The notes under the pieces were generated by a model, which worked only from the letters and a program-made list of their open reading frames with translations, did not search any database and was not told where the DNA came from. 64,000 nt of DNA from Sipunculus nudus (Eukaryota > Annelida > Sipuncula > Golfingiida > Sipunculidae): assembly GCA_026874595.1 (NCBI GenBank), contig CM049307.1, positions 40,492,362-40,556,361 of the forward strand, given 5' to 3'. Below, piece by piece: positions 12,765-58,885 of the stretch (position 1 is the first letter of the stretch; each line of letters begins with the position of its first letter). The position numbers and the translations under genes were made by a program.

Positions 12765-13000
12765 ACCAGTGTGTATATAAATTTGACCACTACTGTGTAT
12801 GGACAAACAATGTCATCGGAGGGCGGAACCATAACTATTTCATGGCCTTCCTGTTGTCTGTGTGCATAATCAGCGGCAATGGAGCCATACTCTGTGTCCA
12901 AACATTACGGGTAATAACCAAGAAGACAAATTTGTGGGAGGCCAAATATTTAGATGACTCTGGAGTGCCACAAGCCATGACCTGGCATGTATTATTTCAG
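12765..13000 (+). CDS. ZDHHC4: ZDHHC4-like palmitoyltransferase, penultimate exon (catalytic DHYC core)
   Basis: Encodes the second half of a DHHC cysteine-rich domain and the following membrane helix of an S-acyltransferase that palmitoylates membrane-associated proteins, probably at the ER or Golgi. The exon reads QCVYKFDHYCVWTNN, then an IGGRNHNYF motif, then a hydrophobic stretch (YFMAFLLSVCIISG). The catalytic Cys codon is at 12794-12796. The order and spacing match ZDHHC4, including the acidic loop before the next helix. I place the acceptor at the AG of 12763-12764, because a preceding A then restores the usual Asn in the C-N-x-C-V motif. An AG nine bases upstream (12754-12755) is an in-frame alternative. 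The donor is CAG|gtgggt at 13001, and the exon ends in phase 0. Two oddities are DHYC instead of DHHC, and Val where the family has the zinc-binding Cys of NNC. Upstream exons with the first zinc ligands were not found in 1-12764. Confidence 0.88.
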
Positions 13001-13805
13001 GTGGGTTGTGAAGGGGTAAAGTTTCTTCGGTTTATAGAATTATTTCTCCACTTTTGTCAATTTATGTCCAGTGTCAAACTTGATCTATTGTACAGGTGGT
13101 TAGATTTGTTTAAATTATCAGATTTTTTTTTTTTTGGTGTGTTATTTAATAGTGTTCAGTAGTAAGTATATACTTTAACACAATGGAAAATATGTTAGTA
13201 TATCCTAAGAGAAAAAAAGAAGAAAGTAATTGAAGAATAAATTCTATGAGTTTTAATTATATTCTATGATATATGTATTTTCCCTAACAAGAGTTAGACA
13301 GAGAGAGATGCAATTTGTGCCTTGCTTCTTACTTCATGTGTGAACTACATTGAACTAAAGAGACTGTAATAATATTAAATTCATACTTGGTCGTGGTTTT
13401 ATTAATTCCGAGCTGATAACTGGTATGGGGGGAAGATATTTTCCTTTTGGATGTTTGTTTACTACAAAAATACGAAATACCAAGAAAAATGTCTTAATTT
13501 CTTGAAATTTCAGGAGGATCTATCAATCAAGGTGTATTACAATGATATAAAGATTCTTTTATCTAAAGATTATAAAATTCTCAGCATGATCCTTGCAATG
13601 TAATTGAACACATAATATGTTAAGTGAGTGTCCTTTGAGATAAGAACAAAAAAGTTGATTGATTCATGTCCACCAAAGCACTCTTGGTTGTGTGTGCTGT
13701 TTGTCTAAATTTACTTGTGACATTTCCCTTAGATTGATCTTTCGATCAAAGAACTGTGGACCTCATGTGTAGCTGTCTAAATTTACTCTTTGCCATTTCT
13801 TCCAG

Positions 13806-25091: not shown

Positions 25092-26072
25092 TCAAGAACT
25101 TGGTGCGTTCAATACTGGCAGCTTGCTTGTAATATTGATTAAAGCAAGGGGTAACAGAAAGGGATCGCTCTCCCTATGACAACTTTCTTGAAGATAATAC
25201 TGTCTTTTTTTAAGATCGCTTGTTTTAAAATGCGAGTGTTTATGCTTTTGCTTCTCTGCGGCCTGGGAAGGAAACACGTGCTCTCGTGCGGTCGAATCTG
25301 TTGTTGACGCGTGCTTGTATTTATAGACATAAAGCTTGTCATTGATTTGTGGTCGGTGTATGATATGTTGGCGGGCTGCATGTTCAATACTCTTGGTAGG
25401 GCCTTGATTGCGGACCCTTACAGAATCAGACAGTCTAGGTCTCAAGGACCAATGTGATATGCTATGCTTGATAACCCATCCAGCAACTAGTGTCATCATT
25501 ATGGACAGGCTTGGTATTCTTAGTGTAACTCCGCCACTTTTATCTAACGTCACATCGAACGTGAAACACGCGCCGTCGGCTTGTTTTTCAACTTCGAAGC
25601 GTCTACTTCTGCAAAAATCACTGCCGTTCCTGTATAAATCCCGTATGACTGCACCTTTGAGTGTAGCAGACCCACAAGCTCTGAAAAGCTCTTCACAAAA
25701 CTCCTCGCACACTGTGAGCCTCTCGCGTTTGTAAAAGTAATTTTGGTTAGGTGCACAAATGTAGCACATAAGGTAATTGATGTATTGTTGGCAAGCTCGT
25801 GATGCACCTTGCAAAGGCTTAACTCGACCGAACGTAGCCTCAATTTCCTGTTGAAGACAGCAACTGTTCTGTTTAAACCAAGTACAGTTCTTGAGGTCCG
25901 GTTGTGCAGTAGGCGCTCTGTTGGCAAAGAAAGGGCAGAACAACAATTCTTCTCGCGCGTACATAGTCCCTGTAGCTACACATACAGTAGTCATCGTTAG
26001 AAAGGCTAAACTTACGGTAATCAAGCAAGATTGAACCCCGCACCTCGCGTGCCCACCATCAACCGCCGCCAT
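25092..26072 (-). CDS. Folate-receptor-domain (FRD) secreted or membrane protein, single exon
   Basis: A 326-residue frame starting at the ATG at 26072 (context AACATGG, a good Kozak match); the open frame upstream of it has no other ATG. Residues about 14-36 are a hydrophobic signal or anchor. Residues about 46-170 form a Cys-rich folate-receptor-type domain: CPFF, NCTWFKQNSCC, a CxxYINYLMCYICAPNQ block, VCEEFC, AC, FC and CF. Two N-glycosylation sequons (NCT and NGS) are present. The domain resembles the N-terminal domain of the hedgehog-interacting protein family more than true folate receptors, because the Trp-rich folate-binding segments are absent; ligand unknown. A short hydrophobic patch (188-203) could be a GPI or membrane anchor. 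It is followed by a basic, low-complexity tail of about 120 residues with no recognisable domain. A consensus donor (T|GTAAGG) at 25421 could splice the tail away. No homologous neighbour gene is visible. Confidence 0.8.
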   Translation of the reverse strand: MAAVDGGHARCGVQSCLITVSLAFLTMTTVCVATGTMYAREELLFCPFFANRAPTAQPDLKNCTWFKQNSCCLQQEIEATFGRVKPLQGASRACQQYINYLMCYICAPNQNYFYKRERLTVCEEFCEELFRACGSATLKGAVIRDLYRNGSDFCRSRRFEVEKQADGACFTFDVTLDKSGGVTLRIPSLSIMMTLVAGWVIKHSISHWSLRPRLSDSVRVRNQGPTKSIEHAARQHIIHRPQINDKLYVYKYKHASTTDSTAREHVFPSQAAEKQKHKHSHFKTSDLKKRQYYLQESCHRESDPFLLPLALINITSKLPVLNAPSS

Positions 26073-26099
26073 GTTGGTGGAGACTGAATTTCGCACGTT

Positions 26100-28565
26100 T
26101 ATTCACAGCTGTATCAGGAGAAGACGGCCACTTTCCTGTTCACAACACTGGGTACCCCTGCCTGCCATGAGCTCGGATATAAGAACGTAGCTCTAGGTTT
26201 TGTGGGGGCCGATCAGGAGTGAATGCTCGGTGCTTCCGCTGCGTGGTGATCGATACCCGCTTTGGGGGTCTGGTGGCAGCGTTGTTGCTTGTCAAATCGT
26301 TGAGGCACTATCTTCAAGTAATAGGGAACTTGAATTCAAACTGCACAATTCAAATACACGGAGTTTTCCCCCAAGGCATGTGCGTGTCCAGATCTTTTTT
26401 TTTTTTTTTGGTGTGACGGTTGTTTATATCTCCTCCCTTGTGACTGGCCCAATCTATATATATTGGATAAGGAAACTCCAGAACAATGCAGAATTCTGGT
26501 CCCGCTTGCACTAAACTGAATTTACGAATGGAGGAGAGTAGTTTGATGAACAGGCCTTAGGTTGTTTTACCAAAGCGTTTGGGATCCCGTAGTTTTATTA
26601 TGGACACTTAAATGGATAAAATCGTATATTACCAAGTGAAAAGTATTAAAAAGACCAAGCTCATCCTGTTACCAACTTAACAGATACTCATCATTTTGGA
26701 GCAAGCCATAAGCTAACTAGTCGTGAGATGCGATTAAAAATAATTAACTTCCCCTAGTTTCACGTATTGGCACATAAAATCAAGATTGTTAGAAGGGCCA
26801 TAAGTTTCTTTCTAGAAATAGGTGAACAACTTAGCAGGATATTGTTTGCTCTGTGAGATTTTTACGACATTAGACAAGAAATGATTCGCTGTGCAACTTT
26901 ATTAACCCGCAACATTGTCCCATAAAGACTCGCAACATTTATGAATACCTGTGGGATATGAAATGACAGAACCAAGGTCAGGACCGTATTACGTGAGATA
27001 TAATTGGCTGTGGAGCCGTATTAACACAGGTTCCGATTACAATTATCTAAAGGGATAATGACTCTCAGTGAGTAATAAATCAATATTAAAGGACCAGTCT
27101 TTACGGCTTAGCTCGCCGTCGTGTCATTTGGGTATCAGCACCGAAGAAACATCAGTAACACACGTTCCTGGCACCTCCGGAAAAGGCAAACAAATAAAGG
27201 AAATATTGCCTAGTTCTATGCATAAAGGTCTAATTACTTTCACAAGTGAGCCGTCCTTCTTCGGGATAATCACAATGTGAGATGCTCAATCATTCTTACG
27301 ATCCAGCCAAGGTCTATTGATTTCGCCATCAGCTACTGAGGTTTTAACTCCTGTTCGGACGAGATCCACCGAGAGGGGACCCTACTGAAAACAGTAATCT
27401 TGCCCTGGGAAATAGCATGTGTTGAAACGCGGGTTTGATTACCGTAGCTTGCCTATTACCGTAGCCCAGGCAGGGTTGGCCAGGCATGGAACAGTCCTTT
27501 ATATTAACGGGCAATTCACATTTGAGAAACTCGTATCCTGCAGCGTATATCAGATCGTACACTACAATGCCTGTATTATTAAACAAATACCATCTGTAAG
27601 GATAAATTCGTTGATGTCCTTCATTTTATATGCTATATCAATGCTTCTGAAATGACATCGGTTTTCTCCATTGTTCTTGTGTCTCTGCCCAGGACTATCT
27701 ACTGATTAGTTCTAGTGCTCTGATAAACCTTGCATGAAAGCTTTATGTTTATTACTGCTGCCCGAGATAATGAATACAACAATAAAAGTCTCTTGGACAG
27801 ATTAAGGTTTTGTGGAAATCAATTGAAGATAATTCATGGAAATCCAGACCTCGGAGACGATGTAATTACAAGAGGTTATCGAGTCACTACAGAATGATTT
27901 GAGTTACGTAATTTGATATTTAGTCAGGCGTTGGTGATTTTTTTTTTATTGTTTTTTTTTAAATAAGGAGATTTTTTTCTATCATATATTGAACATGTTG
28001 GAATTTAATTAAACTGAATGCATGTATCTTCTGAATCTTCACGTTTTATTTCAATTCTGTGCTTATTTTGAGATTAAACAGAATTTAAGGTTCAGTCTGT
28101 CTTAAGACTGACAGATTTAGTCTTCCGAAATAGCAAAACTGAATCCTCCATTTTTGCACTGGAGTTACTTCTTGAGATTTTCTCAGAATTAAACTGTAAA
28201 ACTATATTATCTAAAACCATTACCCAGGACAATTTTTTTGGCCATTTTGTTTGTGAATATATAATTGTGTTACCGAGCTTATAAAGACTCCATGGTTTTC
28301 CTTGCCCTGTTGTATGCCGAATTTACTGTACTTCCTCATATGGAATGCCGAGGTCTCCTCGAGGCTGTTTTGTCGTGTAAGATCGTTCAGATCTTAAAGT
28401 TTTGTCATTTTTACACGCAGAGACTTCAGGCGTATGAACAGCTTAACAATAGCAATTTTCAGGATTTATAGATCACAGGCGGTAATTGGCTAAATATTTG
28501 TGTATATCTGTATAGTATTCGTAAAATATTATAATAAATGTTCAGATACTGTTTTATATAATTTT
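26100..28565. other. 5' flank of the FRD gene and unique region, no further gene seen
   Basis: Moderately CpG-rich close to the FRD start (26100-26400), consistent with a promoter on the minus strand, but no core element was identified. A T15-type run at about 26396-26410 may mark a retroposed fragment. The remainder to 28565 has no domain-bearing frame. Confidence 0.35.
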
Positions 28566-38928: not shown

Positions 38929-39170
38929 GTAAGTCAATGGTTCAAAGTGACATAAGAGAAAACATTTTCACAGCATCATTTCATCACTCGCGTGGGCGTG
39001 GAGGAGCTTGTTTACGTGAGCGATAAATGGGATGTTGCAACGTTTGACAGACAAGTGCAGTTTGGACCACGGTATATACCAACTACCATGTCAGTGATTT
39101 TGATCATCTGTTGTTTTGTTACTCAAGCGGCAGATAAAAGCTTGAGCTACCTGATATTATTTTGGCAGGC

Positions 39171-40291: not shown

Positions 40292-40891
40292 CTTCCTATT
40301 ATTTTTCATTATCCTTATCTTATGGTGTTATCTGACACCCATATATTATGAAACAAGTGATCATGTGATGACAGTAATGGCTGATTAGATGATTGTGGGT
40401 GTACTTATAATATATATGCTGAAACATATTGATTGTTAAAATCATATCAGCAGCTCACTGCTTTACGTATGCTAGTGTAAGCTTGATTAACCATGTTTTA
40501 AGATGATTATTCCTGTTAAGATGAGAGCGTTATAGATTTTCATGTGTATATATATATTTAGGGATTTTACAAAAGGTGTGATATTATGGTTCAATAAACT
40601 GTCTAAATAAGGTGACACATTTGATGGGGCTAGAGAATAATAAGGCAAGTACTAGCAATATTTGTATCACATAAGATAGAAGAGAACTTATTAACATTAT
40701 AATTCACCAGTTTTAGGTGCCAGGCATTCCTATTCAATCACAATATTGGTGTTGCATCTTGTGTAAAATTATATCAGAACTGGAATGGAGAGGCTTAAGA
40801 AGAAAAAGAAGAATATAATGAGAAGTATCATTAAATTTCTTGGCTTGGTTGAATGGTAAATGTCAAGGTTTCATTTGGTCCTAATTTCAGA

Positions 40892-41032
40892 ATGAGCCAG
40901 TCTGAGTACAAGTACACCCATCTGGGGAAGGCAGTGTCTGGTGATGCTCCACCTGATAAACAGTGGCACCTGGTGTGGAGGGGAACCAACCTGCTCATGG
41001 TGGTGTTCTTCTGTCTAGCAGCAGCTGTCCAG
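40892..41032 (+). CDS. TMEM220: TMEM220-like membrane protein, coding exon 1 (start, helix 1)
   Basis: Residues 1-47. The ATG (context AGAATGA, with A at -3 after splicing) comes one base after the acceptor at 40890. A polar N-terminus is followed by helix 1 (LLMVVFFCLAAAVQ), ending exactly at CAG|gtatgg in phase 0. Joined to the next exon this gives AAAVQ-VNDPDPEVW, the signature of TMEM220, a small four-helix membrane protein of unknown biochemical function. The whole predicted protein is 192 or 193 residues depending on the last exon. The gene is spread over about 18 kb, with introns filled by transposons. All junctions are GT-AG and phase-consistent. Helices fall at about residues 33-46, 59-72, 84-104 and 126-137, plus a last one in the alternative exon, so the count depends on how the short second hydrophobic segment is treated. 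Confidence 0.88.
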
Positions 41033-41067
41033 GTATGGAATGGGGAAATTCATTGAAAACTGTGTGA

Positions 41068-41229
41068 TAGGACCACCTGCTGGTGTTTGGGAATGGTCTT
41101 AATTTACAGGTAGTCCCATTAGACAGGTCAGTTATAACCAGTGTGAATGCTTTTGGTTCACTGAAATGTGGTCTTAATAGACAGGTGGTCTGATTAGAGA
41201 GGTGGACTTTCAGACAGGTTCCACTGTAT
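41068..41229. mobile_element. ACAGTGGAACCTG-type MITE fragment
   Basis: Repeated GACCACCTG/CAGGTGGTC motifs and a right end CAGGTTCCACTGTA. Left end truncated. Related to 54396-54585 and 62188-62282. It lies in the intron after coding exon 1. Confidence 0.55.
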
Positions 41230-41668
41230 ATTACATTACACAGTAAATGCAGAGGAGATGAAGCAAAAATCTGATAAATTAGAGGACTTTGAGTAGAGGG
41301 CAAACACCTCCAAGACCAAACATTCAGACACAAGTAAAATGAAATGCAATAAAATTGACAAAACCCCTTATACTCACTAGTATATTGATTTTTAGTGTAG
41401 ATATAAAAAGAACTTAAAACCTAGTCATTTTAAGGTCAAGGCTGCTTAATTTGTAAATGGAAGATATTTATTTGTGAACTTGATAAACAGATAAAGTAAT
41501 CTATTTTATCTCCAAAGAAATGATTCAGAGTGTAAGAAATGTAAAGAAAACAGCAAAACACCTGCAGAGTGCATATATATGAGTATATTTATGTTTTGCA
41601 AATGAATTGTTATAGGTAATGTTACTAGTTATGGCTTTTTTAATATTGATATATTTTCCTTTTCTTAG

Positions 41669-41698
41669 GTAAATGATCCAGATCCTGAGGTTTGGATT
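41669..41698 (+). CDS. TMEM220: TMEM220-like, coding exon 2 (30-base microexon)
   Basis: Ten codons, VNDPDPEVWI, between ttttcttag and gtaagt, phase 0 on both sides. This is the most conserved stretch of the TMEM220 family, so the assignment is secure despite its size. Skipping it would keep the frame but delete the signature motif. Confidence 0.88.
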
Positions 41699-42114
41699 GT
41701 AAGTATACCATGTAATTTGACAAACTTCTTTTTAATCTTACACCTAGGTAAATATTAAATATTAGTTATGTGGTTTAGAATTTGACTTGGGACTTGAAGG
41801 TCCTATGATAAAACTATAACATCTTAAATAACTGTTAAGAATGTTTCTTTCATAGCCAGCTAGTATAATTTTGGACTTCACACTTAAACATAATTGATTT
41901 GATAAAGTAAGATTGCTCTAATGTACAGAAAATATATGCAAGTTAGATATTATGTATAAAACTTCTTTTAAACCAAGACATATTGCAGGAACCAACAACA
42001 CAGATATTTTAATAATTTATATAAATTGGTAAATCTGATGAATAAAATTTTGTAAATTTGCCTGTATCCACTAACTTGAGTGCAGGAATAGAATTTATAT
42101 TGTTTTTATTTCAG

Positions 42115-42175
42115 CCTGAATATGCTATTGCTGCCCTGCTGACACTGTGTATTGTCTTCAAGCCAGATGTTCAAA
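42115..42175 (+). CDS. TMEM220: TMEM220-like, coding exon 3
   Basis: Residues 58-77 plus one base (PEYAIAALLTLCIVFKPDVQ). Acceptor tttatttcag, donor A|gtgagt, ending in phase 1. It encodes a short hydrophobic helix and the loop after it. A full-length family A repeat begins 72 bases into the downstream intron. Confidence 0.88.
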
Positions 42176-44700
42176 GTGAGTCAGCTAAATGTTTTAACTG
42201 TAATGTTTATGAATTTCAGTCATTCAGATAGCACTGGTTTAATTTTTAGCTCAGTTGACTATAAGTCATCTGAGCTATAGTCGTTGTCCTTTGTCCGTCG
42301 GCTGTCCGTCCGTCTGTCCGTCCGTTAAACTGGCACGTTTTGAAACCGTTAGACCTACGAATCCGAAATTCGGCATACAGTTAGATGTCCCCCAAAATCT
42401 CCTACCATACCGAAAATTTGGTCATTAGGACTTCGTTCCTTCGAGATATTAAGGAAAAACCTCCATTTTCCATAAAAAAATCCATTGTTGCACTATAAGA
42501 CTGCCTAATATCAAAACCACTGATCTGATTTTGATCATAGTGAAAATGCATATTCTTCCATACATTTTCTATGTACATACCAAAAATTAGGTCAGTATTG
42601 CGTAATTTGTTGAAGTAATGGGCCGGATCATAATGCACCTCATAAAAAAATCAGGAAATATTTAACTCACTTAACATAAGAATGGCTGAAGCTAGAGACT
42701 TCTTTTCAGGGATATATCTCCATTTAATCAAGATTCAATTGTACACTGAAAATTAGATCTGAATTTTTCAAATTTTATAAGTTATTTGCATAAATATAAA
42801 ATCAGTACCTAAAATTTTGCCCAAATTTGGGCATAGCATGTTTTTTCCTTGTTAGTACTGTTGGTTTAATTTTCATATTATGCACACGTAAGGATTTCAG
42901 CTTCTAAATTCTGAAATTTGAAAGGAATTGACCAAAAACTGTAGCTTTTATTACATTTTTTATGAGACCATGTCACACCTAGGCTGTACTGAAGCCCCTC
43001 TATATGTCCCCATATTGACCTTTCATGCTTGAAGCGAGGCAAGCCAGCTCTTGGGTGGCCTCAGCTGGATATAGCTATTAAACCCCCCTCTTCTTGTAAT
43101 TGTTTGGCCAAAAACATAACAATAAACAATAATTTTAAAAAATTATTGGTTTACAATAACAACTTTAAGAAAAATAAATGGAAAAGGAATTTTTTGGTTA
43201 ATGTGTAACAGGGACCTTGCAATTACTAATGTTTTATGGATCTTTCATGGATTGCTGAAAATATATTTCAAATGACACCATGCAGTCACCATTGGGTATT
43301 TTTTAATTTCAATCATAAAAATGAAAAATAAATAATTAAATAAAATTGTTGTTTACTATAAGGGATTATGTAAAGCAAGTTAATGATAGACAAGGATGCA
43401 TTTGGTCATATTAAATATTCTAAATTTCCAGGTCTTTTCCAGGTGTTCAATTTGTTGGGTTTTTTTATTACAAAATTTACAAAAAGTGAAATATGTCAAA
43501 AATTCAAAAAATTACTCAGACAAGAGCTCATTAAAGATGTCAATATGTTTGAATAATAACATTCAGACTCATTACTGTATCAGCTGTTACATGATACTGG
43601 GTAAATAATCAAAATTTATATTTCTGATAACTTTATTTCAGTTAATAAAATTAAACATTCCCAACTCCAGTTTGCTCCTTGTTTAATATATTGGTTTGTT
43701 TTGATCCTTGGGTTATTTTTAACACATGTATTAGTTTCGTAGTAGAGATTATTTTCTTTTTTTTCTGATACAAATTAAAAAAAATAAAATTTTTAAAATC
43801 TGATAAAAACAGGTCTTAAAGACAAGTTCTCTTTATGATGTCTATAATGTTAATAATTGTCATAAGTGTCTTGACAGTGATGTGAAAGTATTCAAAAGAG
43901 AATATAATATTTTTTTTTAAAATTAAAGCCATAAAACCAGGTAGTTACAATCATTATTTAAATTTGTGAAATTTGTATATTCTGGATTCTCAAGAGTTTT
44001 GTTCGACTGAAACTGAATAAATATGAGACCTTGAGTGAATACTTAATAATTGTATTCAAATATGATTTAAAAAAATTCAATAGTTCAATAATGTAAATTA
44101 ATACAAATACTAATACAGGTAAAAAGAAAGAATTTGAGTGCAAATACTTTCAAAATGTATTCATTAAGGCATTCATGAATATATTTTATAATTTTATTGT
44201 AATCATTTATTTCAATTATATTATTAAAAGAAATCTTTTCAAATGTTACTGTTAATATTTTTTAATTAAAATTATATTTTGCCCAATAATTCCAATAAAT
44301 TTTTAATGAATAGTTTAACTCATATCATTTGTGCTAGTGGTATATTGGCTATGGGCAACCTGAAATTATTGAATAACAGTTAACTCCTTTGTAAAAAGCA
44401 TGCATGATAATTAACATGACTTACAGTGGATATTTATTTCCTGTTACTAGTGTTAGTGCTGTGGATTTAATTTTCACAGCATGTACACATAAGCATTTCA
44501 TCTGTTAAAATCTGAAATTTGAAACCAATTGATCAAAAACTGTAGATGTCATTTAAGTTTTCAAGCACCATGCCTTGATTGTTTTCATCTAGTCAGTGAA
44601 ATGTGTGCTTGGGCAGTATTACATAACTTTCAACTTCTGACCTAGCCACTGCCTCTGTGATTGTCTGGGTCAGGCTGGGTCAGGCAGTAATTACCAGAGA

Positions 44701-44862
44701 GCCTCTCTCTCTCTCTGGCAGTCTATATATCTCTCTCTCATGCTCTATCTCTCCCTCTCTCTCCATGACGGTCTAGCACACTCTCTATTGCTCTCTCTCT
44801 CTTTCGCTCTCTCTTTCTCTCTCTCTCTCTCTCTTTCTCTCCCATTCTCTCTCACCCCTAAG
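44701..44862. repeat. (CT)n-rich tract
   Basis: About 160 bases of CTCTCT runs with short interruptions, inside family A copy 6. Confidence 0.9.
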
Positions 44863-45687
44863 CCTCCCATTCTCCCTGCACCCCATTCTGTTGACAGGTA
44901 CTATAAACCAGATTAATTAGCGATGAATGTTGAAGCAATTTAGAAATGTGAATCAACTGAAATATTCATATATATATATGTTATACTGTAAATGTGTAGT
45001 TACATTTTTAAACCTGGAAAAAATGATGTATTGAAAAAAAGGAATAAAGGCAAATATTGTTAATTTTTCCTGGCTCAGTAGAATGGGAATAAAAATGATT
45101 TGTTTGTTTCTCCACCTTTCTGCCTGCTTAAATATGTAATAATTATGAATAAACATTTTTCTCTGTAAGCACTTGAATTCAATTTAATATCCTGTATGAA
45201 TATGCAAGGGTGCTGTAACTCCCACCATCCCCTTCCCCCACCCGATAGAGTCCTTGCTCTTTGGCACTGTGAACAATAGTTCTATTGCTTTTCCATAAAA
45301 TTAAATAATTAAAGATAATATATACAGAAAGACTGAGGCATTTTAACTCCCATCATAACCCCCTCCCCCCCCCCCCTCAATCTTCCACCTGTTAAGTGGG
45401 GACTTTATGGCTTCTGTATACATATGATAAAATAGAAAATAGGTTTATTAAAATAATTGGATCTCATTAAACAAATCTGTAAACTGTTGAACTGTCAACA
45501 GCTTATCAAAAAGGTAACCTATGGAACCACATGGTTAGATCTCAAAATATTATTTGCAACAATTTCTTCAATCATATCAACCAACCATGGCCAAGATTAC
45601 CTTTTCCGATCAGACTTTATCTGCTTTTCATAATATTTTAGATTTTAACCTTCCAGGTGTTTAAGTACTGTTGAATGCTCCATCCCC

Positions 45688-45695
45688 TCTCTCTG

Positions 45696-45739
<44 letters not shown>

Positions 45740-45752
45740 CTTTTCTCTCTAC
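45688..45752. repeat. (CT)n tract
   Basis: Nearly pure CT run inside family A copy 6. It gives spurious Ser/Leu and Arg/Glu frames on the two strands. Confidence 0.9.
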
Positions 45753-46951
45753 ATCCACCTCATAGCTGCCCTCACTGTTCCCTTCTCTGAGCCCCATCCC
45801 AATGTCAGCCTCAGTAAACAAGAACAAGATGAATCAGATATATTCATACTTAAATATTTTGTATAACTATTCGTCCATAGGTATCTATTTACATGCCAGA
45901 AATTATGTCAATATTGTGTAATATGTAGACATAGTGGGCATCAAAATAATGTACATTGTCAAGACTAAAGAGATATTGTGTCATACAGTAACAAATTCAT
46001 AAATCCCCTCATCAGCATAGTAAATTATTACATCATATCTGTCAAATTGAAATCTTGCAGACTTCCATACACTATAGATCCTTCAACAAATAGCCTATTC
46101 ATCATTCTACTAAGTACAGCTTATTACTGCTGTCATTGCATTCATATTTGCTCAGATATATCGCAATTTTCAACCCCTCCTAAAAAAATAAAAAATAAAC
46201 CACTATATTTTACTCTGTCAATCCATCAGTCAGGTTATTTCATTTATTATTTACTCACATATTACATTACATTCCTTTATAATAGCCCAACATGTCCATA
46301 ATATTCATAAGCTTTATCGACTCGATATAGTATCACAATGGAGAAACATTTATGGTCCAATCACAATCAGCTGAGCGCCGTGACCCATGGGTCCCTTGTT
46401 ATGATTCATTTGATGTAATATATCACCATTAGTTCATTCTACTGTAGTCTGCCTTAAAGTTGTTTATTTCAGTCTGGTTTACAGTAAACCATTTCATAGT
46501 GCACCCAGTTGAATCCATATCTGTTTTAGACCCAGTTTTGCTACCATATGACCCGATTCCGCGACCAATTTTAGAACATAACAAAAACTCATGTGTAGGT
46601 CAAGGATCAAATTACATATTCTGTTACAACCTATTATGCATTCAGTGTTGTTTGTTATCTGATATCTGTATAACAGGGTGTACTATAGTTTTATCTCATC
46701 TCAGATTAAAACTGAAAGTCTTCTTCAGTACATGTACAAATCAGTGTCTTGACAATGGGATGAGGACTGTAGACTTGAGATTGTCTACTTGAGACTTGAA
46801 GACATTCTTACATTAAGTTTCAAGTTTCATCTTTAACTTAAAATATGAACAGGACAGGCATTTGTAGATTTGCATCAGAAATATTCTTTTCTTTCTCATA
46901 TGAATAAATAAGCATTTTTCAGCATAATTCTTGATGTATATTTTTGTACAG

Positions 46952-47084
46952 GTAATAGTGTGTGGAGAGTGGCGTGTGTCCTACACCTGGCGATTAATGT
47001 CCTGGCAGCCATGTACCTGACAGCGCTTGTTGTGGAGCAGCTTGCCGTCAGAATGACCAATCCTCTTGAACATGAGGTCGGCAG
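46952..47084 (+). CDS. TMEM220: TMEM220-like, coding exon 4
   Basis: Residues 78-121 plus two bases. The acceptor is ttttgtacag and the donor is CAG|gtaaga. It starts SNSVWRVACVLHL, which aligns with the N-x-x-W helix of TMEM220, and ends in a charged loop (MTNPLEHEVG). The intron before it is 4.8 kb because of the family A insertion. Confidence 0.88.
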
Positions 47085-47102
47085 GTAAGAACAGCATTTG
47101 TT

Positions 47103-47554
47103 AGGCTGTATCCGCACTTGGTTCACACCTAAACAGAATTATACTAAACTTGTTTACTTTAGTCTCGAAGTAGTCTGCTTTGCGTCTGCACTGTAGTCCG
47201 CTTTACAAAAGCCTAAACCGGTTTATTCAGCACATTGTGAGTTTGCTGTCTGCACTTAGTTCATAATCTGGTTCAAGCCTGCAATGGAGCACTCCCTCAC
47301 TGAATGCCTGCTGGGGCAGCATCAAGGGTAGTGGTCAAGGCCGTTCGCTGACACTGGACTCATCCTGACTAGATGTGGATTTGCCTTTACACACTAGAAA
47401 CCAGTTTACTGTAAACTGGACTTAAGTAAACGGACTACTGTAGACCATCTATTAAGTGGACTACAGTACACCAAACTGACACAGAATAGTGGCTTAGTGC
47501 AGGCAGAGTAAACTGATTCACGATCTGGATTATTTGCTAGTATGGATACAGCCT
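47103..47554. mobile_element. AGGCTGTATCC-type MITE, copy 1
   Basis: Left end AGGCTGTATCCGCACTTG; right end TAGTATGGATACAGCCT, complementary over the outer 11 bases. The interior has GTTTACT/AGTAAAC and GTAGTCTGC motifs. The right subterminal region matches the left subterminal region of 61198-61592. It starts only 19 bases after the donor of TMEM220 exon 4. Confidence 0.65.
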
Positions 47555-48229
47555 ATGCTTACCTGTTGGTTGAGAGGGATGTACTTTAAGGTTAAGTTCC
47601 TCTTTGAACCCAGTTTGATTGTTCATTTAAAGATTTTCTGTGTGCCTGCCTGTGTGCGAGACATCTAAAAAAGTCTTGCTGGAGTTGCAGTGAACATTGA
47701 TGGGAGAGATGGGTGATTCAATATAATTTTATCATCCAGACTTTTTCAGGGTTGTTTTTTTAACATTGTACATATGACAGTGAACAGCAGTTTGTACTGA
47801 TATTTAGTTGTGGTCATGGTACCATAAGAGAGACAATGTAAAAAAGGAGTTCTATTCACTTTAAAATGCTTCACACTTTTTTTTTATAAGTAAACTTGTT
47901 GGCTTGTCAATATTATCAAAAATATGTATTCTGTTAATGCTTTCATGGTTCATTCGTCAACCATTTGTTACTTCTGAATATAGGTAGTTCTATCCAGCTG
48001 ATGAAAGTATATCTTTCCTTATAATGGCCAACATTGGCTAAATGATAAATACATAGCTGCTGAAATAAAAATGATTGAAACATGAATGAATCAGGTCAGA
48101 AAACAAAGTAAATGTAGTCTATTAAGGAATATTTTGCATAGTCTTGATATTAGTTGTTATAAAATGATCTCATAGAAATATTTAACTTACTGATTAACAT
48201 CATGCTGTTTTACCCTTGTCTGATTTCAG

Positions 48230-48295
48230 GGAGCTATCTGGCGTGATCATCCTCATCATATGGCTCTGTATCATCAGGTTCTCCTCGCTGGGAGG
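48230..48295 (+). CDS. TMEM220: TMEM220-like, coding exon 5
   Basis: Residues 122-143 plus two bases, RELSGVIILIIWLCIIRFSS. The GRELSG start is the conserved E-G-R-E-L-S-G block of the family. Acceptor gatttcag, donor GG|gtaagt, leaving phase 2, which both candidate last exons accept. Confidence 0.88.
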
Positions 48296-49975: not shown

Positions 49976-50359
49976 ATTGAAGGTCCTGAAATTGAGGATG
50001 TACTAACAGTTAAAAAATACAAAAATGGCATTTTCAAAAAGGCATAAATAAAAATGCCAAAGGCATGTTGTGAATGTATCTGTGCCATTTAACTCACCTG
50101 ACTGTAAGTCATTTTATTTGGCCTTAATTTTCCCGTTATCAGTGGAAAGGTGACTGCACAAATAATTGAAATAAAAATTTACAGGAACAAACCTTCAGGC
50201 ACAACATTTTGATGATGTGCTCCCCCACTGCTTCCCCATCAGCTGAGCCTCTTGACCTGTGGGTCACTTCATAGTTCATGCCATTTTGTACATGCCACTT
50301 TGCACTAGCTTGCATTTACCCAGTACATCACCTGTAGCTGGTTGATTCTGTCCTTGTAG
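48296..50359 (+). other. TMEM220: Intron 5 of the TMEM220-like gene (proximal splice)
   Basis: Contains an (AT)n run at 49943-49971 and a decayed family A fragment at about 50093-50273 (AACTCACCTGACTGTAAGTC to GACCTGTGGGTCACTTC). No other exon is supported. Confidence 0.4.
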
Positions 50360-50507
50360 TAGTGGTCTATCTGCCAGATACATCCTGCTGGCCTGCGGGC
50401 TCCTTGGGAGCGCTCCTATTGTACTATGGGGATTCTGTTACATCGATTACTTCCACCATAGAATGAGTCACTGTCAGTACCTCTGCTCAGCCCCTTCTAA
50501 AGCGTGA
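50360..50507 (+). CDS. TMEM220: TMEM220-like, proximal alternative last exon (isoform A)
   Basis: The acceptor tccttgtag at 50359 joins in phase to exon 5. It reads GSGLSARYILLACGLLG, a final helix ending SAPIVLWGFCYI, then HHRMSHCQYLC and TGA. The residues align with the last helix and the T/S-H-C-x tail of TMEM220 (isoform length 192 aa). The nearest AATAAA (50738) lies inside the family C repeat that starts 152 bases downstream of the stop. Confidence 0.75.
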
Positions 50508-50658
50508 TTGAAGGTAACATATATTACAGACTCTAACAATAACTAAGAGCAGCTGAGTGTGTTGGTTAAGGAATTACAAATTCAGTTTGGTTGGACACTG
50601 TATTAACATAATCTAACACATTTTAAAGGTTTTAACAATAATCTGATCATACCATTTT

Positions 50659-52023
50659 TATGCCCCCGCCACAAAGTGGCCGGGGCATATAGTTTTACCC
50701 ATGTCCGTCATTCAGTCCTTCCGTCCTGTCCTTCCGAAATAAAACAGTTGTACAGAATTTTTTTCGCAATGCCTGCAGATATTGGCCTGATTTTTGGTGT
50801 GTGGGCAGATTATGACCAGTTACAGATCGAGTTCGCGTTTCGTCCCGGTTGACCTACTTTTGACCGTTTTACGGCTCCTAAACTTAGAAAATTTCATGAA
50901 AAATAGAAATTTTCATGACAAATACACATGTACGGACTTTTTTTCACAATGCCTGCAGATATTGGCCTGATTTTTGGTGTGTGGGCAGATAATGACCAGT
51001 TACAGATCGAGTTCGCGTTTTGTCCTGGTTGACCTACTTTTGACCATTTTACGGCTCCTAAACTTAGAAAATTTCATGAAAAATAGAAATTTTCATGACA
51101 AATATACATGTACAAACTTTTTTCGCAATTCCTGCAGATATTGGCCTGAATTTTGGTGTGTAGGCAGATAATGACCAGTTACAGATCGAGTTTGCGTTTC
51201 GTCCAGGTTGACCTACTTTTGACCGTTTTACGGCTCCTTAACTTAGAAAATTTCATGAAAAATATAAATTTTCATGACAAATACACATGTACGGACTTTT
51301 TTTTCGCAATGCCTGCAGATATTGGCCTGATTTTTGGTGTGTGGGCAGATAATGACCAGTTACAGATCGAGTTCATGTTTTGTCTTAGTTGACCTACTTT
51401 TGACCATTTCACGGTGGTCTAACATAGAAAATTTCATAAAAAAGTGCACATGTACAGACTTTTTTTGCAATGCCTGCAGATACAGGCTTGATTTTTGGTG
51501 TGTAGGCAGATAATGACCAGTTACAGATCAAGTTCTTGTTTTGTCCCAGTTGACCTACTTTTGACCATTTGACTGCTTTTGAACATAGAAAGTTTCATGA
51601 AAAATAGAAATTTTCATAACAAATGCATATGTACCAACTTTTTTTCCTCAATGCCTGCAGATACCACCCTGATTTTTTATGTGTGGGCAGATAATGACAG
51701 TTGCAGATCAAGTTCGCATTTCATCCCGGTTGACCTACTTTTCATTGTCTTACGGCTCCTAAACATAGAAAATTTCATGAAAGACAGAAATTTTTATGGA
51801 AAATGCACATGTATGGACTTTTTTTCACAGTGCCTGCAGATACTGGCCTGATTTTTGGTGTGTTGCTTGATAATGACCCGTAACAGATCGAGTTTGCATT
51901 TTGCCCTTGTTGACCTACTTTTGACCATATGACACCTCCTGAACTTAAAAATTTTTTCAAAATTTAACAAATGTTTCTAATTTGCCCCAGGCGGGGGCAT
52001 TCGTGTCGATCAGACACATCTAG
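50659..52023 (+). mobile_element. Family C Helitron/HINE-like element
   Basis: Starts TATGCCCCCGCC with the folding partner GGCCGGGGCATA, then a GTCC/TTCC-rich patch and a tandem array. It ends GGCGGGGGCAT (complement of the start), the hairpin GTGTCGATCAGACAC, then ATCTAG. It is flanked by T on both sides. It lies 152 bases after the stop of TMEM220 isoform A and contributes the nearest AATAAA (50738-50743). No coding capacity. Confidence 0.75.
50760..51950 (+). repeat. 180-base tandem repeats of family C (seven units)
   Basis: The landmark CCTGCAGATA (with small variations) occurs at about 50771, 50951, 51130, 51311, 51473, 51653 and 51833. The period is 180 bases except for one unit of about 162. 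Each unit includes GTTGACCTACTTTTGACC. Repeated reading frames here are by-products of the array. Confidence 0.85.
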
Positions 52024-53055
52024 TTTACCATAGAAAATCAGCAACATTCTTTTTTAATAAATGTTAAATAAAAAAGTTTGGTGTGTATTAAACATGGAAG
52101 CATTACTTCTCAACTGTTTCCCTGCTGCATTGAACATATTTTGGAAGGCAGAAAGATAAAAAATATCAGTCAGTGTTGAGTGATCATAAAGGATTTTAAG
52201 TAAATGTACATTACTGGTTTAATATTCAGTTAGATAACAAAGTTTGGTCTAATTTATTGCTTTAATTTTGCAAATAAATCCTTTAATTTGGCTTACAACC
52301 CCCAGAGCATAGATTAAATGTATAATGAATTAAGCATAAAAGCACCATTTTGCTATCATTTGATGGCATCATTAGTTGGTAGATAGCCCCACATGCACTG
52401 GCATTAGGTACTGTCAGGGGCAGACTCCTGATAATCGCTTCTTTTGGCAAATGATCCATGACACACTAATTACTTTAAAAAATTTGAGACAAGTGAGGAA
52501 TAATGGCCTGATTGCTGCCTTAGTTTTAATAACCCTACTACTGACAGTCCTTACCAGATTGATCAGTTAAGTTGTCAATGGGGTGCCTTATTATTGATGA
52601 CCCTTATGGCTAACAGTTTTGCTCCATGCAACCCTCCACTTTTAAATTATACCTTACTTAAAACTGTTACGTTAAGGCCTAATGGAACACATTTTTACAC
52701 TTAACAACTTAAGGAGAATGACAATTTGCTACAACTTCAAATGTAACGATCTACTTCTGTGATAGATCTAAGAGACTTTGACAAGTGCAGGTTCAACTGG
52801 CAAAGTCAAAGAGACAGGATGAGTTTTTCCACCAAAATTGTGGCTCTAAATGGGTGTGCTGATTATCTTTATTGAGTTTTGGTTGGTCTTTAAAACTCTT
52901 GTCATTCAAACACATACAACTAATTATACTGACTTATAACTTTTTCCATCTGTTTTGGCAATATTTTATTTATCAGCTGAGAGTTAAACTCAAATGAAAT
53001 TTTTAATATCAGTGGTGTAGTTAATTTTAATATATTAGAAATTAGTTTAATTGTC
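52024..53055. other. Unique sequence between repeats, nothing recognised
   Basis: AT-rich intronic sequence of the distal TMEM220 splice; no exon or repeat identified. Confidence 0.3.
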
Positions 53056-53952
53056 TCCGCCAAAACGAAGTTTTGCGGATACTATGTTTTTGACGGGGTT
53101 CCGCCGCCGCTGAACTCCTCAGAGAACTCCTCTGAGACTACTGGACAGATTTTTCCGAAACTGACACAAATTATTGGGTCACATGTGAACTGTTTCCTAA
53201 CCAAGTTGCCTTGACCTCTGACCTTTCCTCTCTGCCCAGCGTCCATTTGTGCGTCTGTTTCCACACATAAACCCACATATCTCGGGAACCGTTTGACCAA
53301 TCAGGAAAAAATTTTTTACACAAATGTAGCCCTTGGATAGCTTTATAACATACACAAAAAAAAGGTGGCACCACCTGCAACCATGTTTGCACAGCGTCCA
53401 TCTGTTCATCTGCCTTAGGTTAAAATCACTCATATCTCTGCAGTGGTTTGACTAATTCAACTAAAATTTGGCATGTATATACATCCTAGATAATTTTCTT
53501 GATTTTATGACTGGTGGCGCCACCTACATTCATGTTAACGCTGCAGACATCCAAGCTCATATCTCGGTAACCGTTTGACCAATCAGGAAAAAATTTTTAC
53601 ACAAATGTAGCCCTTGGATAGCTTTATAACATACACAAAAATGGTGGCGCCACCTGCAGCCATTTTTGCACAGCGTCCATCTGTTGGTCTGCTGTGGGAT
53701 AAAATCACCCATATCTCTGCAGTGGTTTGACTTTTCCACCTGAAATTTTGCATGTGTCTACATCTTGGATAGTTTCTCATTCAAATTACAGGTGGCGCCA
53801 CCTACAATCATGTTTACTTGGCAGAGATCCATTCTAATATGTAACACATGTAACTCTATTTCCCCTTGCCACTCAATCCATGCCTCACTTCACCTGTCCT
53901 ACTCTGATTTTGGCGGATACACGTAGTCGCTTGTTGACTACCCGTGTTCTAG
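53056..53952 (+). mobile_element. Family B element, copy 3 (short)
   Basis: Intact 5' end (TCCGCCAAAACGAAG with partner GTTTTGCGGA) and 3' end (GGCGGATACACGTAGTCG, TTGTTGACTAC, CCGTGTTCTAG). It holds only about two 280-base units and a very short GCC run. The 3' hairpin has one mismatch compared with copies 1 and 2. Confidence 0.7.
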
Positions 53953-54395
53953 TTTAATATTTATTCTGCTGACAGTCAAGAACATTGAAATATACAACAA
54001 ACAGTGATTGGATGTTGGTCTCATGAATATTAAATTTGAGAAAGCTTTGAAGTAATGCGGATGCAAGTTAACATAAGGCTGCCAATGTGTGGCTTCAGTC
54101 ATACAGTATTGATTAGTCATTAAATATAATCATATTGGGATTAAGCTTATTAATTCCTATATAAAGTATCAGTCCTATATGGAGGTTATTGATGCTTTTA
54201 CCAAAATCAAAGTTTAGAAAAAAGTATTGACAGGATATATATTTGATATTGGTGAATACAGTGGATAGTGTAAACTTTTTTAACTTTTTATTTGTAGTTA
54301 CTGTAAATAGTATGTACTAGGTAAGTTAACGGACTGAAGTTTAGACATGGTAAACATTTGACCATATGTGGGAACATAGGAATTTTTAATGATAT

Positions 54396-54585
54396 TACAG
54401 TGAAACCTGTGTTATGAGACCACCCATGGGACTGGCCAAAAGTTGTCTGAATTCACAGGTGGTCGTATAAGACAGTTCAGTTATAACCAATGTGAATGCT
54501 CTTGGTTCTCCAAATGAGGATTTAATAGACAGTTGGTCTTATAAGACAGGTGGTCTAAATGGTCTTTCAGACAGTGTCTATAGAA
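54396..54585. mobile_element. ACAGTGGAACCTG-type MITE, copy 2
   Basis: Left end TACAGTGAAACCTGTGTTAT, repeated GGTGGTC/GACCACC motifs, and a degraded right end (CAGACAGTGTCTATAG). It shares TCAGTTATAACCARTGTGAA with the copy at 41068. Confidence 0.6.
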
Positions 54586-56349
54586 CATGATATGTCGTCA
54601 TTGATGGTACTAAGGCTAAAGATTTGACTGTAATTCACATTCACTGGCATTTAAATTCAGGAACATACATATGATTAAAATATCACAAGGCAAGGAGACT
54701 TTTTATATGGGTTAAACAGGTACAGTTTCAGAAACCAGTTGCTTTCAGTAAAGAGAACATATTCAAAGGGCATTTTCATTCATTCAGTGCTGTCATCAGC
54801 GTAATTCTAGAAGATAGTCACCATCTGTGATGAAGTGGTTGGCTGGTCCCTAAATTCCCCATAGGATACAGGCAAAGTTGTTTGGGCACAGAGCAAAAAT
54901 AAAGTTTTTGCTATATATAATTATGTCAGGAAGTTATTTCAGATATATCATGGATTATATGCCTATGTGTATGGTTACATATTACATGACTAATGGGATA
55001 GTTCAGAAATTCTAAGGAGCCTGTCCACTTAAGAATTGGACCCCTAATGTTTTTAGTCTTATCAAGAGGGTCAGTTAAGATACAGCTGTTAGAAACATCA
55101 AAATATTTTAAACGAAACATACTTGTGTATGTAGAGATAATGGTCTTGAAAAAAGAAGCCCTACAGCTGGATTCTAGATTAAAAAAATATATATACAGTC
55201 GAGCCCACTTTGTTTCATATCGGTTAATAGAAAATCCTGTTTATTATCACATCAATCTGAAATCCCAAACCATTTCCTATATAAACAATCTGACCATTTA
55301 ATATCATGGAATATTGTCATAATCTCGTTAATTGTCATGTTTGGAACCCTTGGCAGTGATACCAGATCGCAGTTAATATCACATCAGGTCCCGACACATC
55401 GATCAGAGAAGCCAAGAGCCTGTAATCGGTCAGATGTATCAAACGATCACATCTCCCACCTGTGTGCTGTAGGCAAGTGCAGTGATGCATGCAGGTCACT
55501 CCACCATCACTTAGCAAATTAACGTCTTAAAATACTATAGTAATCCAGATCATTGCCTTTCTTCGTACGTTAACAAGGGCGATGTTTGCGATCACATGTC
55601 ATACATAATAAACTCCTGGCTTTTGCAAGGCCGTTGTTTACACCTCGATGTAATTTCGCCGAGATGATATTAAGCACAAGCTCTTAACATTGCTTACGAC
55701 TGGAAATCCCCTTATACGGCCCAGGAAAAGCTGGAGGTTTTTTAGAGTACTGGAGGAGATACTCGGTCCAAAACCTCAATCGCGGCGAAACTTCTGATAG
55801 ATGACAATGGCATGACAATGCCCCCTCCCCCAACAGTCATATCATAAAGATGATCATGGAAGTTTGGGTCATTAATAATATATATCCAGAAATAAGGCGC
55901 AATAGTCTGGGAAATAATTATTTAGTAAAATACTTTGCCTACGCATAATGTTATGACCTCATGACCCAGGCGCTACCTCTCTTTCTGTTGGCATGTTGGA
56001 TTTTTGTCAGTTATTGCGGCATGCGGCACAAAACTTACAGTAAATAAATTGTCAGGTGTGCATAAATGTAATTTGATATGCTGTTGTGCAATAAAAATAT
56101 TCATAAACGATTCTGTTTCCTTTTTGTTGACGATTTATTTAATATCATTTGAGACATAACGCTTTTTCTATGAATAAAAAAAACATCGATGTTGAAGCCT
56201 GCATAATGTCACATCCTGGTTATATCAAAATTTATGCATGCACCACCGATATGACAATAAGCAGGCTTGACTCTATTTAAATTGATAAAGCACTTGGTGT
56301 AGTACAGATTAGCTCCACTAAATCAAAATACTGAAAAAAAAAAATAGAT

Positions 56350-56425
56350 GTTTTTGTGTAGCGGGATTCAAACCACAATCAGTGTGATAATGAGACCTTC
56401 ACACTGCCACTGGACTTACCTTGCA
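56350..56425 (-). repeat. tRNA-like relic (possible SINE head)
   Basis: On the minus strand GGTTTGAATCC matches the RNA polymerase III B box with one change, and is followed by CGCTAC. An upstream AGTCCAGTGGCAG could be a decayed A box. It does not fold into a convincing tRNA. Confidence 0.3.
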
Positions 56426-56957
56426 CCTGCTGGTTAAACAGTCTACTGAACATGTACAAGGTTTGATTGACTCATGGGATACATGGGGGCAGCCGTATCC
56501 CGAAACTGTACCTTTACTAAGACCAGTTCCAAAATTCCAATTTCAACATTTCTCCTAATACTAATGTCAATTATCTTTAAGATTTTTTGGAAACATGAAA
56601 AAAACCCTACTAACAGTATAAAGTATTTTTAAAGAGTAAGGTAATGAAACAGCTTGAAGTAAAAATTATGTCTATGACTATGTTTATCCTTAATTTATTC
56701 TTATGAACAACCAAAATGGTTAAGGATAATTATCCAGCTTCCATATATATTGGAGTTATTCTTTTTTTTTTACAATAATACTATCAAGGTGATTAGGTTT
56801 AGAATCTGCCACTTAAGTGTATTTATAATTCATAAGTTATCTTTGATTGTTATAACTTAAATTTAAGAACAACATACAGATTTTGTCATTTTTGTTAAGC
56901 ATTCATAAAGTATTAGGCATACAATGTTAAAGTGAATTTCTGTTGTTTTCTTTTCAG

Positions 56958-57108
56958 AGCAGACAGCAGCAGTAAGAAAGTCCAGAATGTTCTTCTTCTG
57001 GTCACCGGAATCCTGGGATTGCTTCCATTTGTGTTCTGGTCGTTTTGCTTCTCGGAAACATTATCCCATAAGTTACATTACTGTAAAGATGTGGTAGCTG
57101 CCACCTGA
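56958..57108 (+). CDS. TMEM220: TMEM220-like, distal alternative last exon (isoform B)
   Basis: The acceptor ttcttttcag at 56957 also joins exon 5 in phase. It reads GADSSSKKVQNVLLLVTGI, a final helix ending GLLPFVFWSFCF, then LSHKLHYCKDVVAAT and TGA (isoform length 193 aa). The SSSKK start and H-Y-C-K tail look closer to the vertebrate TMEM220 C-terminus than the proximal exon does, so this may be the ancestral one. It resembles the proximal exon in helix position, W-x-F-C pattern and His/Cys tail, so the two look like products of an exon duplication. Confidence 0.8.
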
Positions 57109-58885
57109 TCAGCACACCAAAACTATCGTATTTCACTGTAATTTCACCATTTATGAGGTGTTTTGGGTAATAATGTTAACTGAAATAGGTGCTTTATCAC
57201 ATTCCAACACTTTTGGTGTTTATTATCATTTAGTCTCCAGGATACTCATATTAAGGAATACTCTATGTAACAATTAGCAGTCCATGTTTTGCCGGCCACA
57301 CACAAGGGACTCTGTTGGTCACATGTTGCATATGTGTATGACAAATTATGTCATGTTTCCAGTGTTCTCCAACATTTTCAAGTTTTGCAACATGTTCTAT
57401 TATCATGCATCATGTTGCGAAGTTACATTCCAAGGTTTTGCCAATGAAATCGCAGGATTTAAAGTCACTGCACCAGGGACCAAAGAGCAATAAGGCTTAA
57501 AGACAGAGGACCACACTGAATGGATAAAACAATCACCAAGTTGTTTCAGGTACATGCTGGTTATGTGTGTATAGGGGGGGTCATGTTTCAAGAAAATTTG
57601 TGAATAGAGTAACGTTTCAAGAAATATGGGTGCAGCACGTTGCACAATAAATTACCAGGTGTATTGCCTGCTTAAAATGCACAAAACGAAAATGGTTTTT
57701 AAATATTGGTCATGGTTCAGAGGAGGATACATCAAAATTGTGAACAAGAAATCTGGACAATTTGTGACTTGTATGGTTCTTGCTTCTGCAAACTTCCTAC
57801 CATGATCAGATCAGAAATATTATAATATGATCGAATATTCAATTTACTTATGTAATATATGTATTTATATTTTTGGATATATATATGTTATAGAATTTTT
57901 GTTGTTGAATTACATTGAATATTACATAATTTTGTGATTTCTGCAAGTAAATATTAATGCCTTTGTCATGATCATTTCCTTATTAACTAATATTGTTAGG
58001 CATACATTACATCACATCTTTGGGTATTGAAATTGTGGAGCTTTGATATAGTAGAATTGTTTTTATAAACATATTAATATATGTGTGTGTATTTATAAAG
58101 TTTTAAATCAGGTTTAATTTATGGATTCATCAGGATAACATGTTCAATAGATAAATAACCATTATTTATTGTCAATGGAAATAAGTATAAAAATATGTGG
58201 TGTTGTACTGGTATGTGGTTGTGAACTTCATGATAATGTATTCAAATGGTGATATTCAGAGGGCATTCTTAGCCATCTAGAGTTTACCAATACTAATGTT
58301 CCCAGCGGGCCAATGGTGTAAACATAATCTTGATGTTTGTGGGCCGAAGATATGAATAAAATATTAATGCCATTTAGGCCTATGGTACTAACTTTAATAT
58401 GCTTTCAGTTACATTTCTATAGTTAATTCTATTCATCAAATACATCTCACAGTTTATGAAAACTGACAAAGCTGGTGATTCCATTTTTATGATGTGCTTA
58501 GTGACACCTGTGTGATAGCCTGATTTGGTCAGTTTATTCAAGCCCCACCTACTTATGGTACAGTGTGTGGTGACTTTTCAATGGAAGTCTAGCACATAGT
58601 CTAGTTACAGGCATATGTATGTAGAACACATTTTGGCATGATTCTACTGTTTACTACAGTTTATATTTTTATGAATTACAAGGCATTCAGTTCTCATAAG
58701 ATTCACATATGTAAGAGACTTAAATTTTGTAGTAGTCTCAAACCATCATGTAGCTTATGACTTTGCTATGTGTGACAGACTTTATACTTATTTGTATATC
58801 TTTTGTGTATATGTTATTCTTATATAAATTGTTCAAATGTTATTCTTGTGGGCTTTTGGCAATAAAAGAATAATCCTTCCTTAAT
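57109..58885 (+). other. TMEM220: 3' UTR of TMEM220-like isoform B with poly(A) signal
   Basis: Unique AT-rich sequence with no coding potential. AATAAA sequences occur near 57645 and 58355, and a clear one at 58861-58866 is followed by T/GT-rich sequence. Use of the last would give a 3' UTR of about 1.77 kb. Confidence 0.5.

Follow-up and report, generated by a model that had tools for sequence, protein, structure and literature searches.

A TMEM220-family gene of Sipunculus nudus whose last coding exon is present in two old, diverged copies

A 64,000-nucleotide stretch of the Sipunculus nudus genome (assembly GCA_026874595.1, contig CM049307.1, positions 40,492,362 to 40,556,361 of the forward strand; here called the window and numbered from its first base) contains a small animal membrane-protein gene of the TMEM220 family in which the last coding exon occurs as two old and diverged copies, which we name 6a and 6b. 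In the account given by PMC6979480, endogenous human TMEM220 localizes to the Golgi and an overexpressed tagged form to the endoplasmic reticulum, and knockdown disturbs both Golgi structure and secretion. Among the literature matches listed, work on TMEM220 mostly concerns cancer and long non-coding RNA, and of the nine papers that give the protein both its short and its long name none mentions a mollusc in the title. Five coding exons and a donor upstream of them make up the part of the gene that precedes the duplicated exon:

38929..38934, + strand: donor AAG/GTAAGT, likely that of an upstream non-coding exon; score 8.59
40892..41032, + strand: coding exon 1, with the ATG start and helix 1; tblastn match; donor score 4.61
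41669..41698, + strand: coding exon 2, with the VNDPDPEVWI motif; acceptor 8.83, donor 2.87; too short for a separate tblastn match
42115..42175, + strand: coding exon 3, with helix 2; tblastn match
46952..47084, + strand: coding exon 4, with helix 3; tblastn match
48230..48295, + strand: coding exon 5, the last common exon, with helix 4 and a phase 2 end; tblastn match; acceptor 3.97, donor 6.49

Exons 1 to 5 span 40892-48295. Because their summed coding length is 431 nucleotides, exon 5 breaks off after the second base of a codon, in phase 2, as an earlier note on this DNA had read it. The split codon is completed as glycine by both 6a and 6b. That note had also called the gene TMEM220-like, and the Pfam profile PF15071 bears this out: the common part matches it with E values of 3e-24 to 9e-24. 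Exons 1 to 5 alone score 86.1 bits, isoform a (exons 1-5 plus 6a) 85.2 bits and isoform b (exons 1-5 plus 6b) 84.6 bits, all above the gathering score of 27. The match stops at residue 138, ahead of the fifth helix, and is uninformative about either exon 6. A sequence search of the PDB gave no match. At the front of the gene, the acceptor directly 5' of the exon 1 ATG (at 40891) scores 3.74, and the donor at 38929 exceeds all five coding-exon donors. Together they point to a non-coding exon further upstream, near 38.9 kb, whose donor would be joined to that acceptor.

The last coding exon and the sequence that follows its distal copy are laid out as follows:

50360..50507, + strand: coding part of exon 6a, the proximal diverged copy; helix 5, tail ...SHCQYLCSAPSKA, TGA at 50505-50507; weak acceptor, 3.84
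56958..57108, + strand: coding part of exon 6b, the distal copy; helix 5, tail ...LHYCKDVVAAT, TGA at 57106-57108; strong acceptor, 9.21
57109..58880, + strand: probable 3' untranslated region (UTR) of 6b, likely ending after the AATAAA at 58861; further AATAAA hexamers at 57646 and 58355

Translation confirms what had been claimed of the two exons: each follows an acceptor (context TTGTAG for 6a and TTTCAG for 6b), continues in frame and stops at the length given, so that isoform a would have 192 residues and isoform b 193. The W-x-F-C pattern attributed to both copies can be read in their peptides as LWGFC and FWSFC, and both carry the His/Cys tail. The numbering of the helix was wrong. Exon 6 had been taken to encode a fourth helix, whereas a hydropathy scan gives five: four shared by both isoforms (residues 32-48, 55-71, 84-100 and 124-140) and a fifth whose position differs, 152-168 in isoform a against 155-171 in isoform b. 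Thus, by hydropathy, exon 6 carries the fifth hydrophobic helix. In isoform a, an overlapping weak window is also flagged at 143-159.

Two smaller observations concern the surroundings of the copies. The acceptor of 6a is a tandem TAGTAG (50357-50363) with a second AG three bases on, making a one-residue-shorter form possible. The copies lie 6.4 kb apart, repeats included, and a repeat-like block with units about 279 bp apart occupies 53050-53930 between them.

The homology of the two last exons, proposed from their appearance, is upheld by comparison of their peptides. These align without gaps over 37 residues, 13 of them identical, with a local BLOSUM62 score of 86. Shuffled peptides score 21.0 on average (standard deviation 4.4), and none of 20,000 reaches 86; nor does any of 20,000 segment-wise shuffles that keep the hydrophobic block intact. 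The window holds 2208 six-frame open segments of 20 residues or more, and among them 6a is the top non-self match. We considered a third exon-6 copy in the window and rejected it, as the next-best segments score 43 and 40 against 86.

We then compared the peptides with the whole genome (1.43 Gb in 153 contigs), scoring the best candidates only: 12 for isoform b, 4 for the 6a peptide and 6 for the 6b peptide. Among these, the 6a peptide finds itself, then 6b (E 8.4e-4), then matches at 0.13 (with a stop) and 0.57. The 6b peptide likewise finds itself, then 6a (E 0.0023), then matches at 0.088 (with a stop), 0.20 and 2.4. Because each exon peptide finds the other as its best non-self match, the pair is reciprocal genome-wide. 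With isoform b as the query, six matches have E values of at most 1, and all lie at this locus: exons 1, 3, 4, 5, 6b and 6a, the last ranking sixth at E 0.078. Exon 2, with its 10 codons, has no match of its own. No second TMEM220 gene appears among the 12 candidates scored, and the isoform b search is that expected of an exon duplication rather than of a whole-gene duplication. Homologous, within one gene, and on the same strand and in the same phase, 6a and 6b form a tandem duplicated exon pair. The sequence case for a reciprocal pairing at genome scale in a single-copy gene is strong but not absolute.

A PF15071 profile search of the S. nudus genome found no match even at this locus and recovered none of 14 controls, which makes it uninformative on absence; we take it to miss the known gene on account of the shortness of the exons among which the coding sequence is divided. 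To ask whether the fifth helix is ancient, we also looked for prokaryotic relatives. Two genome-contig scans, one viral-contig scan and a plasmid tblastn returned none, a result that leaves absence unproven since few peptide patterns (two per scan) were used.

Several comparisons bear on the age of the copies and on constraint. In the 37-codon block, identity is 18/37 at codon position 1, 25/37 at position 2 and 14/37 at position 3, and NG86 gives a dN (nonsynonymous divergence) of 0.62 and a dS (synonymous divergence) of 2.09. We also simulated 2000 unconstrained copies, run to an amino-acid identity equal to that observed; 340 of them kept an open frame, and 35 of these 340 scored as high as the real pair. 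The simulation has no insertions or deletions and is therefore generous to the hypothesis that 6a is a relic. Under a looser nucleotide scoring, the likeness of the coding parts is reached by 2 of 2000 shuffles, that of the 300 bases upstream by 1670 of 2000 and that of the 146 bases downstream by 90 of 2000, a borderline value. Because this scoring lifts the coding sequence above shuffles and leaves the upstream sequence among them, likeness seems to be retained mainly in the coding part. Overall, the comparisons favour two coding exons under constraint that were duplicated long ago. Comparison with a human TMEM220 tail, the sequence against which the note's vertebrate H-C-K tail was also set, provides a lead only: 6b scores 45 against it (0 of 5000 shuffles) and 6a scores 30 (88 of 5000), while the two copies score 86 against each other. 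On this lead, the duplication may have come after the vertebrate lineage had split off, and 6b would be the copy that changed less.

How the two copies might be used depends on the sequence that follows the 6a stop, in which two features stand out:

50514..50519, + strand: donor-like AAG/GTAACA, 6 nucleotides past the 6a stop; score 2.97; would make 6a an internal exon, 50360-50513
50654..52020, + strand: high-copy repeat of about seven internal units of about 180 bp; holds the AATAAA at 50738; right end read by eye

Between 50360 and 50700, 19 GT sites are listed; the donor-like site outscores the other 18 and is close in score to the exon 2 donor (2.87). Across the window, an equal or better donor lies within 10 nucleotides after 12 of 1249 TGA triplets and within 30 nucleotides after 36 of them. 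We also considered an internal donor in 6a that would fuse both helices in one protein, and rejected it: the other 18 GT sites in the same interval score below -1.2.

Signals for ending a transcript behind 6a are sparse. Past the 6a stop, neither AATAAA nor ATTAAA occurs before the repeat begins near 50654, and a search of the intervening 146 nucleotides for 14 signal hexamers finds just the poor variant TTTAAA, at 50622. The repeat itself opens with tgcccccgccacaaagtggc and closes near ggcgggggca. Its first 127 bases recur at 39 other scored places with 91-95% identity (the best 40 of 1607 first-look candidates). AATAAA is present in 17 of the 29 other copies examined, which were drawn from the best matches and are not a random sample, and one base makes or breaks the hexamer. 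Most likely, then, the AATAAA at 50738 came with the repeat. Being repeat-borne, it is unlikely to explain any earlier use of 6a, and today it may serve as a second way of ending the transcript.

Our preferred explanation, to which we lean with only modest confidence, is that TMEM220 is a single-copy gene whose last exon exists as two tandem copies, both still coding, and that splicing selects the fifth helix and tail by including or skipping 6a ahead of 6b. By default, exon 5 would be joined to 6b through the strong 6b acceptor to give isoform b. Alternatively, 6a would be included through its weak acceptor, and translation would stop within it to give isoform a. The donor 6 nucleotides past that stop would then join 6a to 6b, which would serve as 3' UTR, so that both messages would have one 3' end. 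For nonsense-mediated decay the general rule is 50-55 nucleotides. With the 6a stop so near the junction, decay should not be triggered, and none is expected of the 6a-bearing message. Transcription of both copies, their alternative use and the mode of inclusion are all predictions from the gene's layout.

The closest parallel that we found is the alternative oxidase gene AOX of the oysters Crassostrea virginica and C. gigas. As described in PMC5589949, its terminal exon 10 is tandem-duplicated, and messages hold either the second copy or both. The resulting proteins are of equal size, and the diverged first copy becomes dominant under air exposure. Like the TMEM220 pair, these are tandem copies of the last coding exon in one gene for a membrane protein, each with a stop and yielding proteins of nearly equal size. 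In both genes the proximal copy is the more diverged and seems to be the alternative form, although for TMEM220 the greater divergence is the lead drawn from the human tail. The oyster message with the proximal copy carries the distal one as 3' UTR, which is the layout that a 6a donor would give. The two cases also differ. The AOX copies are much closer in sequence (26 of 41 residues identical in C. virginica, against 13 of 37 here), and their use was demonstrated by complementary DNA (cDNA) and a stress response, whereas the TMEM220 case is predicted from DNA. PMC5589949 gives an alternative 3' splice site as the mechanism and reports only a long fragment from genomic polymerase chain reaction (PCR), from which the AOX copies seem to adjoin without an intron. 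The TMEM220 copies are separated by 6.4 kb that includes repeats, and joining them would require a donor. AOX thus supports the layout of the message only and not a donor between copies, which lowers our confidence in inclusion and raises it for alternative last exons.

Other points also weigh against the inclusion of 6a ahead of 6b. The whole case is known from the DNA of one genome, and the splice-site scores come from general consensus matrices that were not trained on it. The 6a donor is moderate, equalled or exceeded by 1.85% of GTs in the window, and how near it lies to the stop was spotted only post hoc. The 6a acceptor (3.84, near the 3.97 of the exon 5 acceptor) is weak as well, being equalled or exceeded by 6.05% of the window's AGs. 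With dS saturated, the NG86 ratio of dN to dS for 6a against 6b is rough. A stringent nucleotide scoring puts the coding parts at shuffle level, with 232 of 1000 shuffles reaching their score, as against 561 of 1000 for the upstream and 430 of 1000 for the downstream flank. The oyster gene adds the point that its inclusion form uses an alternative 3' splice site and that its copies seem to need no donor between them. Finally, 2.2% of sampled positions equal or exceed the GT-rich context behind the AATAAA at 50738, compared with 22.8% for the presumed 6b signal at 58861, so the hexamer at 50738 could work despite its origin in a repeat.

That context favours the most serious rival, in which 6a and 6b are true alternative last exons, 6a with a poly(A) site at the AATAAA at 50738, about 230 nucleotides past its stop, and 6b with a separate one. 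It is also consistent with 6a having a stop of its own, and Drosophila pip offers a precedent of duplicated terminal exons used in a mutually exclusive way (PMC9013439). The hexamer's position within a repeat tells against it, since a repeat-borne signal is likely younger than 6a and not made for it. So do the lack of anything better than TTTAAA before the repeat and the donor-like site directly behind the stop. On balance we regard this rival as doubtful. Because a donor-like site follows the stop and no AATAAA or ATTAAA precedes the repeat, it is at least as likely that 6a is a skippable exon spliced onto 6b. The earlier note's proposal therefore divides in two: the sequence gives good support to an exon duplication with two possible C-terminal ends, whereas its term alternative last exons goes beyond what a stop followed by a donor-like site and a repeat-borne AATAAA can show.

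A broader account combines parts of both. The very old duplication may have persisted in the lineage to serve as a regulated switch, responding perhaps to tissue or, as oyster AOX does, to stress. It would exchange the last helix and tail of a Golgi-type membrane protein, with the stop-bearing exon included or skipped and the younger repeat adding a second, poly(A)-based end. We offer it as speculation, and a rather unlikely one.

We judge it improbable that 6a is merely the relic of an earlier exon, now unused or used only at noise level. Its weak acceptor would suit such a fate, as would its greater distance from the human tail (a lead only). Base composition can be read either way: 6a has a GC content of 0.507 against 0.344 over the whole preceding intron, and the 148 bases just upstream of it, at 0.486, indicate that the high value is not specific to the exon. 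Against a relic stand the open frame, the lack of any insertion or deletion in the 37-residue block, the codon-position pattern and the small number of simulated unconstrained copies that both stay open and reach the observed score. Chance or convergence of hydrophobic segments, although membrane helices do inflate such scores, is hardly credible in view of the block-keeping shuffles, the mutual best non-self matches among the candidates scored in the genome, and the shared gene, strand and phase.

Inclusion or skipping of 6a would place TMEM220 in a familiar class. About 10% of animal genes have tandem duplicated exons, by the figure cited in PMC9013439, and PMC9741552 describes 236 human tandem duplicated exon substitutions, of which 77 swap the C-terminal region. 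In the same account, terminal events are enriched, and nearly half of the genes involved in human and fly encode at least one membrane helix. The resemblance to TMEM220 lies in homologous exons within one gene and isoforms identical save for the homologous stretch; the difference is that those substitutions were annotated from transcripts and the TMEM220 pair is predicted from DNA only. Duplicated 3' regions are described for Drosophila pip, given as an untranslated-region case, and PGRP-LC (PMC9013439), and duplicated 3' exons for TPM1, Tm1 and lev-11 (PMC9741552). All are tandem duplicated terminal exons in animals, like the TMEM220 pair, but in other genes, mostly with more copies and with known splicing. 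Duplicated last exons are therefore already known, the oyster example included, and the TMEM220 pair is a further case. Its predicted membership among alternatively spliced duplicated exons fails no test that we applied.

As gene architecture, the arrangement is otherwise ordinary. Its interest lies in the protein, since the predicted isoforms would be versions of a secretory-pathway protein that differ in the packing of the last helix and in the tail. The simplest effect of such a swap of ends would be to tune packing, partners or location. Should both forms be expressed, they would amount to two versions of a poorly understood Golgi protein that are alike except in one helix and its tail, and to a natural swap experiment on that end.

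The window holds two other recognizable domains. A single open frame at 25092-26102 (- strand), about 15 kb before the first TMEM220 coding exon, has a folate receptor family domain (PF03024, E 5.8e-16). An exon-like open frame at 12647-13162 (+ strand) has a DHHC palmitoyltransferase domain (PF01529, E 3e-17).

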